From: Modestobacter sp. Leaf380
Lineage (GTDB): Bacteria > Actinomycetota > Actinomycetes > Mycobacteriales > Geodermatophilaceae
DNA: 64,000 bases
Direction: 5' to 3'
Assembly (NCBI RefSeq): GCF_001424485.1
Contig: NZ_LMQC01000001.1
Span: 563,755-627,754, forward strand
In this document: positions 14,777 through 17,902 of the stretch, piece after piece
Numbering within the stretch: position 1 is the first letter of the stretch
Layout: each line of letters starts with the position of its first letter
Position numbers and translations under genes: made by a program
The notes under the pieces: model-generated
Databases searched by the model: none
The model's input: the letters and a program-made list of their open reading frames with translations, nothing else
What the model was told of the DNA's origin: nothing

Positions 14777-17329
14777 TCAGGAGCGCACGAAGAGCCGACG
14801 GTGCGCGGCCCCGGGTGCGGCGGAGCGGATGCCGGTGCGGGCCAACAGCCAGTTCTCCAGCCGGTCGTCGGGCAGCGGACGGCTCACCAGGAAGCCCTGG
14901 AGCTTGTCGCAGCCCATCTCGGCCAGCAGGTCCCGGGTGACCTCGTCCTCGACGCCCTCGGCGACCACGCGCAGGCCCAGGTTGTGCGCCAGCTCGACGA
15001 TCGACCGGGCGATGAAGGACTCGCTCTGACTGGTCGACATGCCCAGCACGAAGGACTTGTCGATCTTGAGCTCGTCGATGGGCAGCTGGCGCAGCTGGGA
15101 CAGCGAGGAGTAGCCGGTGCCGAAGTCGTCCATCGACAGCCGCAGACCCAGCGAGTGCAGGTCGGCCAACACGGTGGAGTTGCGCACCGAGTCGTCGACG
15201 ACACTGCCCTCGGTCAGCTCCAGGGTCAGCAGCTCGCCCGGCACGCCGTGGTGGCGCAGGGCGGCGCGCACCCGGTCGACCAGGTCCACCTCGGCCAGGC
15301 AGCGCGCGGACAGGTTCACCGCCACCGACAGTGCGATGTCCTGGTCCAGCCACTTGCGGCAGCGGGCCAGCGCGAGGTCGAGCACGTAGTCGGTGACCAT
15401 GCCGATCCGGCCGATCTGCTCGGCCAGGCCGATGAAGTCGTCCGGGGGCACGTTGCCGTACCGCGGGTGGGCCCAGCGGACCAGCGTCTCCACCGAGAGG
15501 ATGTCGGAGGTCACCGCGTCGACGATGGGCTGGAAGACCACGGTGATCTGCTTCTCGGCCATCGCGGACTCGAGTTCGGTGCCCAGCTGCAGACGGCGCA
15601 GGCTCTGCTGGTCCAGCACCGGGTGGTAGCTGGCCACGCCGCCCGAGCTGTGGCCGGCCAGCAGGGCGACGTCGGCACGCTGCATGAGCGTGCCGGACTC
15701 GTCCCCGTGCACCGGGGAGGCGGCCACGCCCAGGGTCAACGAGATCTCCAGGTCCAGCCCGGCGACCCGGGCCCGGGTGCTCGCGGCGTCCCGGAGCCGG
15801 CGGGCCGCGCGCTCGGTCGCCGGCAGGCTCAGCCCCGGCAGCATGACGGCGAACTGGCCACCCTCCATCCGGGCGACCAGCGCGGTCGGCGGCGCGTGCT
15901 CGCGCAACAGGCCGGCGGTCACCAGCAGCAGCTCGTCGCTGGCGGCGTGCCCCAGGGTGTCGGTGACCTCGGTGTAGTTGTCCAGCAGGGCGAAGACCAG
16001 CCCGACCCGGGCGTTCCCGGCGTCGACGGCGAGCAGGGCGTCGACCTCGGCGGCCAGCCGCTGGCGGTTGGGCAGCCCGGTGAGCCGGTCGTGGTCGGCG
16101 TCGTAGCGGATCCGGGTGAGCAGCTGCTGCTGGCGGATCGCGGCGTTGACGTGGGTGAGCATGGAGTCCAGCGCCGCCCGGTCGCCGGAGGCGAAGGAGA
16201 CGACGTCGCTCTGCCGGTCGCAGACCTCCAGGTAGCCCGGCTCGCCGGCCGCGGTCATCACCGGCGCACCGAGGACCTCCGCGGCACCGCGACGGGACAG
16301 CGCCACGAGCTCCTCGGGCGTCGCCCGGGCGGTCGACAGCAGGACCGGCCCCCCGCGCTCGGGGTCGACCGCACGCCGGCGGACGAGGTCGTCGGGGTCG
16401 CTGGGGCCGTCGTACCAGGCCTCACCGTCCCCGGCCTGGTCGACGACCAGGCGGGGTTCCTCGTCGAGGTAGGGCGGCAGCCACAGGGCCACGCGCTCGG
16501 CGTTGAGGAGCTCCCGGACGGCGGTGACGATCTGCCGGGTGCCCTCCTCGTCGGGGCTGACCTCCTCCACGCGGCGGGCGAAGTCGTAGACCCGCTGGAC
16601 GTCCCGGCGCTCGCGGGAGGCGCGGGCGGCCTGCCGGAATGTCAGCACGACCGCGGCGACCAGCGGCAGGGTCAGGACCGGGGACCACGCGGTCTGCTCG
16701 TTGAGCAGCAGCACGACGATCCCGACCGCCACGCTCAGCGGGCTGATCGCGGCCTGCGACCCCAGCGTGGTGACGACGAAGGACCACCCCGGCCACGAGC
16801 TGCTCAGGGTGATGGCGCAGGCGACCATGCAGGCGCCGATGACCCCGGAGGACCCGACCGCCAGCAGGAGCGAGGCCCAGGCCAGCGGGTCGGCGAGGTC
16901 CTGCACGGGGAGCACGGACAGCACCAGCGTGGCGGTGGCCACCTCGACGACCGCCTGACCCAGGTTGAACAGGGCCTTGCCGACCGGGTAGCGCTCGCGG
17001 ACCAGCACCAGGGCCAGCGCGGTGACGCGGGCGGCCAGGGTCCAGAGCCCGCCGATCTCGACCAGGGCGACGACGAGGGCCACCTCGGTGAGGGTGATCG
17101 TGAACGTCTGTCGCCGGAACTCCACGTGCAGCGTGACCGAGTCGGTGACCAGGAAGGCCAGGAAGACCACCAGCACGAACCACGACGGCGCGGACGGCGC
17201 GACCTGGGAGAAGACGGGCAGGCCGAGGGCCGCCGCGAGCGACAACGCCAGCACGGCGATGCCCCAGGGCGTCCGGAGCAGGCGCACCGCTCGGCGCGGT
17301 GTGCCCCACTGAGACTCGGCCAACGTCAC
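14777..17329 (-). CDS. Membrane-bound GGDEF-EAL protein (c-di-GMP phosphodiesterase with degenerate cyclase domain)
   Basis: Large signalling protein (850 residues). The first 240 residues hold a run of hydrophobic helices (a membrane sensor region), followed by a GAF-like segment (about 265-385), a GGDEF domain (about 395-570) and an EAL domain (about 575-825). The cyclase motif is degraded to MEGGQF near residue 488, so diguanylate cyclase activity is unlikely. The EAL domain keeps ETLVRW (about 614), VNLSAR, DDFGTGYSSL (about 734) and LKIDKSFV, so phosphodiesterase activity is likely. GTG 17329 is the start; a TAGCCT box lies 28 bases upstream. YajQ, a c-di-GMP-binding family, is encoded nearby. 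Confidence 0.92.
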   Translation of the reverse strand: MTLAESQWGTPRRAVRLLRTPWGIAVLALSLAAALGLPVFSQVAPSAPSWFVLVVFLAFLVTDSVTLHVEFRRQTFTITLTEVALVVALVEIGGLWTLAARVTALALVLVRERYPVGKALFNLGQAVVEVATATLVLSVLPVQDLADPLAWASLLLAVGSSGVIGACMVACAITLSSSWPGWSFVVTTLGSQAAISPLSVAVGIVVLLLNEQTAWSPVLTLPLVAAVVLTFRQAARASRERRDVQRVYDFARRVEEVSPDEEGTRQIVTAVRELLNAERVALWLPPYLDEEPRLVVDQAGDGEAWYDGPSDPDDLVRRRAVDPERGGPVLLSTARATPEELVALSRRGAAEVLGAPVMTAAGEPGYLEVCDRQSDVVSFASGDRAALDSMLTHVNAAIRQQQLLTRIRYDADHDRLTGLPNRQRLAAEVDALLAVDAGNARVGLVFALLDNYTEVTDTLGHAASDELLLVTAGLLREHAPPTALVARMEGGQFAVMLPGLSLPATERAARRLRDAASTRARVAGLDLEISLTLGVAASPVHGDESGTLMQRADVALLAGHSSGGVASYHPVLDQQSLRRLQLGTELESAMAEKQITVVFQPIVDAVTSDILSVETLVRWAHPRYGNVPPDDFIGLAEQIGRIGMVTDYVLDLALARCRKWLDQDIALSVAVNLSARCLAEVDLVDRVRAALRHHGVPGELLTLELTEGSVVDDSVRNSTVLADLHSLGLRLSMDDFGTGYSSLSQLRQLPIDELKIDKSFVLGMSTSQSESFIARSIVELAHNLGLRVVAEGVEDEVTRDLLAEMGCDKLQGFLVSRPLPDDRLENWLLARTGIRSAAPGAAHRRLFVRS

Positions 17330-17356: not shown

Positions 17357-17362
17357 AGGCTA
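17357..17362 (-). promoter_or_regulatory. Candidate -10 box for the GGDEF-EAL gene
   Basis: TAGCCT on the minus strand (TANNNT), 27 bases before the GTG start and just after the hairpins that end the upstream small gene. Confidence 0.4.
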
Positions 17363-17402
17363 ACAGCGGGTGAGCACCCCCAGGGGGCACCTCACCCGCA
17401 CG

Positions 17403-17444
17403 GGGCACGGCCGCGTCGCCGGAGCGGCGACGTCGGCCGTGCCC
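17403..17444 (-). terminator. Strong hairpin terminator of the small repeat peptide gene
   Basis: Arms 17403-17421 and 17425-17444 are complementary throughout with one unpaired base and a GAG loop. It starts 15 bases after the stop of the 32-residue ORF. A second weaker stem (GGGTGAG...CTCACCC, about 17368-17398) follows. Confidence 0.8.
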
Positions 17445-17459
17445 GCGGGGTGCTGGAGA

Positions 17460-17558
17460 TCAGCTCCAGCGGGAGCCACGGCTCCAGCGGGAGCCACGGC
17501 TCCAGCGCGAACCGCGGGCGGAGGTGCTGGTGCTGGACATGGCGGTGGTGCTGGACAT
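17460..17558 (-). CDS. Small peptide with tandem RGSRWS repeats (32 residues), not recognised
   Basis: Hand translation from ATG 17558 gives an N-terminus MSSTTAMSSTSTSA followed by three copies of RGSRWS and the stop. The ribosome binding site is a perfect AGGAGG 4 bases before the ATG, and a TGA closes the frame just upstream, so the start is unambiguous. A strong terminator follows, making this a self-contained unit. The peptide is basic, Ser/Arg/Trp-rich, with no Cys and no hydrophobic helix. The repeat is encoded by an 18-bp DNA tandem repeat. I know no family that matches; RNA-binding, membrane-active or precursor peptide roles are all only guesses. Confidence 0.7.
   Translation of the reverse strand: MSSTTAMSSTSTSARGSRWSRGSRWSRGSRWS
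17463..17507. repeat. 18-bp tandem repeat encoding RGSRWS units
   Basis: GCTCCAGCGGGAGCCACG occurs at 17463-17480 and 17481-17498, with a partial third copy to 17507. Eighteen bases equal six codons, so gain or loss of units keeps the peptide in frame. Confidence 0.9.
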
Positions 17559-17646
17559 GACGCCTCCTCAGGCATGGCAGGACTGCTCGTTGTGCGGCAG
17601 CCGCCCACGCGGGGGCAGAGCAAGGTCGGCAAGGACCGCTGTGAGC

Positions 17647-17675
17647 AGATTGCGGCGGCTCACCCGTTCGGGCAA
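17647..17675 (-). promoter_or_regulatory. Candidate promoter of the small repeat peptide gene
   Basis: TTGCCC (17675-17670), a 17-base spacer and CAATCT (17652-17647) on the minus strand would give a leader of about 80 bases before the ATG at 17558. Confidence 0.35.
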
Positions 17676-17724
17676 GCCAGGACGCGCACGTTCGGGTGAT
17701 CATCTGGGGCGTCATCACCCACCG

Positions 17725-17747
17725 TGAGGTCAGATGACCTCAGGTCA
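17725..17747. promoter_or_regulatory. Overlapping palindromes of TGAGGTCA half sites (operator candidate)
   Basis: TGAGGTCAGATGACCTCA (17725-17742) is a perfect 18-bp palindrome. Its right half also forms TGACCT-C-AGGTCA (17735-17747), so three half sites alternate in orientation. It lies 50-77 bases upstream of the candidate -35 of the small peptide gene. The binding protein is unknown. Confidence 0.6.
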
Positions 17748-17902
17748 CCGATCGTGTGACACCCGAGGCGGGTGGTGCGACACGCCGCCCCGGTGGACAC
17801 CTGGGTGTGACCGCTCACTGACCGACAGGTGTGACCGGGATGCCCCGGGCGGCCGTCCACACGTCGTGCGGCGGGCGCCGCCCCACGGCGCCGCACCCGC
17901 CC

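Follow-up and report, generated by a model that had tools for sequence, protein, structure and literature searches.

The window, by which we mean the whole stretch of 64,000 nucleotides of the Modestobacter sp. Leaf380 genome that was analysed, carries on its minus strand a gene for a small repetitive peptide and, next downstream, a gene for a membrane-anchored GAF-GGDEF-EAL protein. The peptide open reading frame (17558-17460, minus strand) has 33 codons and a product of 32 residues, MSSTTAMSSTSTSARGSRWSRGSRWSRGSRWS. An 18-bp tandem repeat within it (score 90, 100% match, 2.5 copies) encodes three RGSRWS units, and an in-frame TGA (17570-17568) lies just 5' of the frame. A preliminary description of the sequence had listed the 33-codon frame, its ATG, the AGGAGG, the upstream in-frame stop and the 18-bp repeat, and all of these were found, on the minus strand. 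The general features of the locus are shown in Table 1.

Table 1. Features of the peptide locus and the adjoining gene in the window.
Feature	Positions	Strand	Basis or remark
Membrane part-GAF-GGDEF-EAL protein, 850 aa, proposed receptor and c-di-GMP phosphodiesterase	14777..17329	-	Domain matches, hydropathy
Extended -10 TGTTAGCCT, probable promoter of the GGDEF-EAL gene	17357..17365	-	Family motif TGNTANNNT
GC-rich hairpin, 42-nt near-perfect stem-loop	17403..17444	-	Begins 15 bases past the peptide stop
Peptide gene, 32 aa, ATG start, TGA stop	17460..17558	-	ORF in 65/65 true family loci counted
Three RGSRWS units, C-terminal end of the peptide	17463..17516	-	Unit identity under purifying selection
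Conserved 5' UTR (GCGG...CTCTGCCCCCGCG...), ~80 nt	17559..17640	-	5' end inferred from the promoter-like site
Shine-Dalgarno AGGAGG, 4 bases 5' of the ATG	17563..17568	-	Kept in the family alignment
Promoter-like TTGCCC (17675-17670), 17-nt spacer, CAATCT (17652-17647)	17647..17675	-	Family pattern

Searches at the DNA level recovered the peptide locus from all nine genomes of the genus, the window's own genome included, and from 81 of 112 genomes of the family. We oriented 67 loci, two of which (L109 and L110) are spurious; the 65 true loci all gave the open reading frame, and they represent 65 of the 81 matching family genomes, the other 16 standing outside the count. Seven further family loci (L150-L156) all contain the peptide. 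A covariance model of the 5' UTR matched 82 of 397 genomes of the order, 75 of them in the own family and seven outside it; the seven were inspected one by one, and the peptide is in none of them. A fixed pattern run over 84,980 species genomes returned 46 contigs, 45 of which are titled Klenkia, Geodermatophilus, Blastococcus or Modestobacter. As far as these DNA, covariance-model and pattern searches reach, the peptide gene with its conserved leader is therefore known from Geodermatophilaceae only. The remaining pattern contig (L250) is titled 'UNVERIFIED_ORG: Bacillus sp. AZ43' and is probably a mislabelled member of the Geodermatophilaceae. Plasmid records gave no tblastn match to the peptide.

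The window peptide matched no Pfam family at E values up to 1 and no NCBIfam model, which agrees with the earlier remark that no matching family was known; the peptides of two relatives gave no Pfam model above cut-off, and Rfam gave no family at gathering scores over the peptide locus. Two sub-threshold Rfam matches, malK-III and CcsR1, score far below gathering and were set aside. No paper on this gene or on its pairing with the enzyme was found by title or abstract in the open-licence PMC literature.

Tandem repeats that contain tryptophan are concentrated at the peptide. The sole other one in the window (units of 5-10 residues) is another frame of the same RGSRWS repeat, and across the 67 loci (380,221 bases) 66 lie at the peptide, where one locus can score in more than one frame, and six elsewhere, four of the latter no more than about 100 bases away on the other strand. 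Together with the recovery of the locus from all nine genomes of the genus, this confirms the peptide gene as a real finding, beyond chance.

Across the 65 loci the ATG, the Shine-Dalgarno sequence and the hairpin are conserved and the frame is free of disrupting indels, the hairpin being weak in 13 loci (z above -1); the losses that the preliminary description had named as evidence against the gene did not occur. That description had also placed a near-perfect terminator 15 bases past the stop. The hairpin is there, but the T-run is absent from its 3' side, and a generic scanner called neither a promoter nor a terminator at the locus; a canonical terminator scan finds nothing here because the hairpin lacks a T-run. 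We regard the hairpin as a probable terminator without a U-run. In the window, the 221-nt stretch 17380-17600 around the gene folds at -126.1 kcal/mol (z -5.0 against shuffles), and over the 65 loci the 85 nt past the peptide stop fold with a mean z of -2.90 (40 below -2, 52 below -1), against a mean of -0.35 and 3/65 below -2 in the coding control.

Upstream, a promoter-like pattern TTGnnn-N16-19-nAnnnT is present in 64/64 loci with enough sequence, compared with 1.5% per locus in shuffles, by a rule that was formulated after the loci had been seen. Conserved half-sites, GTCACCC...GGGTGAC and TCAC-N6-GTGA-like, surround the promoter-like site (17640-17760 in the window, and in relatives) and could be an operator. 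The 5' UTR contains near-invariant blocks across the family loci and a helix of GGCTGC (17602-17597) with GCAGTC (17586-17581), in which 92.1% of cells are paired and covariation is 0.223, compared with 0.141 in shuffled and at most 0.047 in slid controls. RNAalifold on the 5' UTR returned only a nearly invariant five-pair helix with no covariation, the GGCTGC/GCAGTC helix having been tested separately. An upstream 35-codon open reading frame ending at the TGA was ruled out because gaps in the 5' UTR between species change its length. The promoter and 5' UTR element occurs a second time, in each case with no W-repeat peptide, at L148 (5001-5095, minus strand), before a 77-aa membrane-like ORF, and at L149 (6001-6079, minus strand), where the copy is truncated and lies beside a second Tad-like gene; both are probably decayed duplications.

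On the downstream side, the motif TGNTANNNT occurs within 300 nt past the peptide stop in 64/65 loci, against 2% in shuffles, and in the window this extended -10 sits 27 nt before the GGDEF-EAL start. Because each of the two genes has a promoter-like site and a hairpin lies between them, they look separately transcribed, and the peptide gene is likely a transcription unit of its own.

The pairing of the two genes is constant, the gene next downstream of the peptide being the orthologue of 14777-17329 in 65/65 true loci, with the two spurious loci excluded. The membrane part of the enzyme spans about residues 1-235 by hydropathy. Its EAL domain (PF00563, E 1.9e-66) retains the motifs ETLVRW, DDFGTGYSS, KIDKSF and EGVE, within which we take the catalytic residues to lie, whereas the GGDEF motif is degenerate (EGGQF), and this combination suggests that the enzyme is a c-di-GMP phosphodiesterase. 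The window's own genome encodes one full-length GGDEF-EAL orthologue. The identified neighbours of the peptide gene are GGDEF-EAL, Tad-like, YajQ (DUF520), HtpX and ANTAR genes; no exporter, modifying or maturation enzyme is among them, as the preliminary description had said of maturation enzymes. HtpX, a metalloprotease gene close by in the window, was found in only 17/67 loci, many loci having too little flank to show it. The upstream side is variable, and the start of the Tad-like gene lies about 0.3-1.0 kb or about 2.7-2.9 kb from the peptide, depending on the locus. In L095, L103, L054 and L066, an extra ~2.3 kb between the Tad-like gene and the peptide consists of a small ORF (MTIEVPPEQLYALADAL...), which we take to resemble a WXG100-type protein, and an open frame of 750-930 residues.

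The peptides of the 65 loci are 18-42 residues long and are built of units R-x-x-[KR]-W-x. Units starting with R number one in 8 peptides, two in 13, three in 24, four in 17 and five in 3; in such units position 4 is K or R in 64/67 unit instances and S in three, the last position is G, S, N, T or A, and 13 different residues occur at position 3. Without the R filter, 64/65 peptides have at least two Trp units and the spacing is six residues in 130/133 cases; 54/65 peptides then contain a single unit string and 11/65 contain two, with 58 strings in total.

In 123 pairs of adjacent R-start units we counted 187 synonymous and 4 nonsynonymous codon differences. Since this filter is blind to nonsynonymous change at the first position of the unit, the count was also made without it, giving 193 synonymous and 11 nonsynonymous differences in 130 pairs, with seven of the 11 at the R position; the synonymous share expected from mutational opportunity is 23% in both counts. 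At the variable third position the unfiltered count is 1 nonsynonymous to 30 synonymous. Arg codons differ synonymously in 60 adjacent-unit pairs, so the unit copies are no recent duplicates. Within a gene the protein sequence of the units is held near-identical, and between species it diverges; the self-contained gene that had been proposed is thereby supported as one under selection as protein. Several identical units held by selection are one mark of multi-copy peptide signals, a working class and not a sequence family; in such a signal the released peptide would also act on the receptor. Even without signalling, these ORFs of 18-42 codons are a clear case of unit identity held by selection within the gene and changing between species. 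A role of the RGSRWS repeat as RNA hairpins was rejected by reading the sequences, the repeat being self-complementary in the window but not in several relatives.

We compared the divergence of the units with that of the enzyme in 55 loci (the 65 less ten, of which seven were short and three had no start in reach). Protein distances average 0.581 in the membrane part, 0.283 in GAF and 0.117 in the catalytic part, making the membrane part ~5x as divergent as the catalytic part. In a matrix regression of unit distance on four other distances, the membrane part has a beta of 0.277 (p 0.002) and the 5' UTR 0.241 (p 0.006), with GAF at -0.018 and the catalytic part at -0.075; the membrane effect persists when Tad (n=55, 0.287) or YajQ (n=31, 0.48) serves as the clock gene. 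Partial correlations with unit distance are 0.263 (p 0.001) for the membrane part and 0.089 (p 0.043) for GAF. Measured by these distances, peptide divergence tracks that of the enzyme's membrane part. Shared history may account for part of the signal, because 5' UTR distance also has an effect and GAF shows a small partial correlation; rapid change of the membrane part is common among sensors, and contact does not follow from a correlation of distances.

Relatives of the enzyme are found well beyond the family, in 358/397 genomes of the order at E 1e-60 and 53/296 of the class at 1e-90, some matches spanning the catalytic part alone. From these we collected 60 upstream regions (L158-L217), mostly of the best full-length matches; because 26 come from one family (f16), the tally does not amount to 60 independent cases, and one region (L177) belongs to a paralogue from the own family. 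A fixed rule, drawn up after the data had been viewed, called an ORF carrying Trp no more than 16 residues from its end in 41/60. As controls, the same rule called 6/57 when these 400 nt were read on the reverse strand and, 600-1000 nt upstream, 11/56 on the same strand and 5/56 on the reverse strand. Four of the 41 positive ORFs (L170, L187, L192 and L197) look accidental. A Trp tract is visible by eye in 13 of the 19 rule misses, and no W-motif ORF was seen in six of the 60 (L179, L189, L190, L191, L195 and L196, the last with only 143 nt of sequence).

These outgroup ORFs take several forms. There are bare repeats (DGGSWT x4, DGNTWT x5, GALWG x2), small peptides in which an N-terminal hydrophobic segment accompanies motifs such as DVVWG (up to five copies), DIVWT, EVEWT and DFDWN, and long ORFs that end in GLRWN, WRGSS, WRGAG, WSGAT, WSGSQ or WAGRT repeats. 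Among 13 W-tail ORFs listed, the ten long ones submitted are all Peptidase_S8. Of six outgroup precursors tested, four have an N-terminal hydrophobic segment, and more were seen by eye; six outgroup small peptides gave no Pfam or NCBIfam family above cut-off. Unit identity, scored as synonymous to nonsynonymous differences in 11 tracts, is very strict in L186 (34:1) and L178 (35:3) and looser in L188 (15:17), L172 (23:17), L167 (5:9) and L158 (3:4); in several of the 11, nonsynonymous differences equal or outnumber the synonymous ones, which speaks against the ligand reading set out below. The unit period also varies between families (5, 6, 8 and others), so that only position and Trp speak for the same function everywhere.

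Taken together, the sequences argue for a likely separate transcription unit, selected unit identity, units that change from species to species, an enzyme partner that is constant in the family, tracking of the enzyme's membrane part, and Trp ORFs beside many of its relatives. The constant GGDEF-EAL pairing, the species-specific near-identical units and the Trp-motif ORFs of other actinobacterial families had escaped the preliminary description, whose interpretation is partly supported: the self-contained gene holds, the suggested RNA or membrane binding is conjectural, and a modified precursor is one of the less likely readings. Unit identity within a gene combined with divergence between species is the trace expected of a multi-copy ligand with a co-changing receptor. 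We therefore favor, tentatively and as a reading that we would stop short of calling probable, a multi-copy peptide ligand of the adjacent phosphodiesterase, working like ComX/ComP or the multi-copy RRNPPA systems and unrelated to either in sequence. The gene product would be a precursor that holds a short ligand several times over in near-identical form, the precursor would be processed into hexapeptides, and these would be delivered to the receptor, where they may bind the neighbouring GAF-GGDEF-EAL protein at its membrane part and set c-di-GMP breakdown in a species-specific manner. Delivery is the weak point of the ligand reading, since the family peptides have no export signal. We know of no ligand for most membrane-bound GGDEF-EAL proteins, and if the ligand reading is true, a whole clade of them gains one that is genetically encoded and predictable.

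The main rival draws on the same weak point. It supposes that the whole repeat peptide stays inside the cell as a small multivalent partner, which serves the GGDEF-EAL protein as subunit or anti-factor or binds nearby membrane or nucleic acid, and acts by avidity with neither processing nor export. No hydrophobic 15-residue segment capable of export was found in any of the 65 family peptides, their net charge is +3 to +9 (mean +6.6), and the gene pairing is constant, all of which suit such a partner. Avidity in itself, however, needs no identity at the variable third position, and the N-terminal hydrophobic segments or S8 subtilase tails of the relatives would put the Trp motif outside the cell; we consider this intracellular role unlikely, though to be taken seriously. 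A RiPP-like peptide, in which Trp would be the modification site of several cores, the enzyme would be encoded elsewhere and the product would be a signal or antimicrobial, could explain why Trp adjoins Lys or Arg between variable flanks in several near-identical cores. It fits less well with the N-terminal parts, which are 3 to >20 variable residues with no conserved leader, with the lack of a maturation gene among the identified neighbours and with the lack of any matching family model, and we judge it quite unlikely.

Less probable again is a cis-acting leader ORF, whose translation or stalling would control the GGDEF-EAL gene. Its position directly upstream of that gene in 65/65 loci, the structured 5' UTR helix and the invariance of Trp within the unit are what a leader might show, but a hairpin and a separate conserved promoter-like site stand between the genes, a leader has no need of the same third residue in every unit, and in relatives a full subtilase occupies the same place. 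A chance ORF over a conserved regulatory RNA, with the repeat produced by slippage, would account for the 5' UTR being better conserved than the coding part; the 193 synonymous to 11 nonsynonymous differences and a frame open in 65/65 loci make this extremely improbable, and we strongly disfavor it.

The ligand reading has parallels in known systems. ComX is extremely variable and yet carries Trp in its last 5-10 residues, and it is encoded beside ComP, which has a variable membrane domain (PMC4008528). The Geodermatophilaceae locus resembles ComX/ComP of Bacillus in combining a short variable precursor and a Trp near the C terminus with an adjacent receptor, here a proposed one, whose multi-helix membrane domain is variable and whose cytoplasmic part is conserved (PMC4008528). 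It differs in having several near-identical units and a GGDEF-EAL partner instead of a histidine kinase, and no sequence relation was found; the window peptide does not match the ComX model PF05952, and no ComQ isoprenyl transferase is among the identified neighbours. RRNPPA propeptides contain up to six identical pheromone copies and, like the peptide here, are encoded next to the gene of the receptor (here a proposed one) with several identical short copies per precursor (PMC9765709). As described there, their receptors are cytoplasmic TPR regulators of Firmicutes, whereas here the partner is a membrane c-di-GMP enzyme, and their propeptides carry export signals, unlike those of the Geodermatophilaceae (PMC9765709). 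No RRNPPA-type TPR receptor adjoins the peptide gene, the domains of the adjacent gene being GAF, GGDEF and EAL only. Given the lack of a sequence match and of a ComQ or TPR gene among the identified neighbours, we file the peptide gene, on present matches, under neither ComX nor RRNPPA. Fungal Kex2-processed repeat proteins, including alpha-factor, likewise have tandem cores per precursor that are highly diverse between species, although they depend on eukaryotic secretion and Kex2 processing; there is no relation (PMC7329392).

A wider form of the ligand reading is possible but on balance rather doubtful. It would hold that a widespread actinobacterial system exists in which a short Trp-centred peptide (delivered bare as a multi-copy precursor, as a small secreted peptide or as a subtilase's own tail) is read directly by a membrane c-di-GMP phosphodiesterase, ligand and sensor co-diversifying into a private code for each species. 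If true, this would give a peptide language for Actinobacteria that is readable from genomes.

The S8 subtilases with W-repeat tails upstream of GGDEF-EAL genes in other actinobacteria occupy the same genomic place as the Geodermatophilaceae peptide and likewise end in tandem Trp units, but the tail units are of other length and sequence and are joined to a protease domain. A single W-tail subtilase used as a query against the window's own genome gave no match at E 1e-5, which says nothing on absence. For the W-tail subtilases of L180, L186 and L188 the closest model is TIGR03921 (type VII secretion mycosin), with E values of 1e-39 to 1e-45 but below its cut-off. In the family genome G037, a second enzyme copy (36% identity) is preceded by an S8 subtilase with a W-repeat tail (L177, 354-2081, minus strand), so the W-tail subtilase and peptide forms can coexist in one genome.
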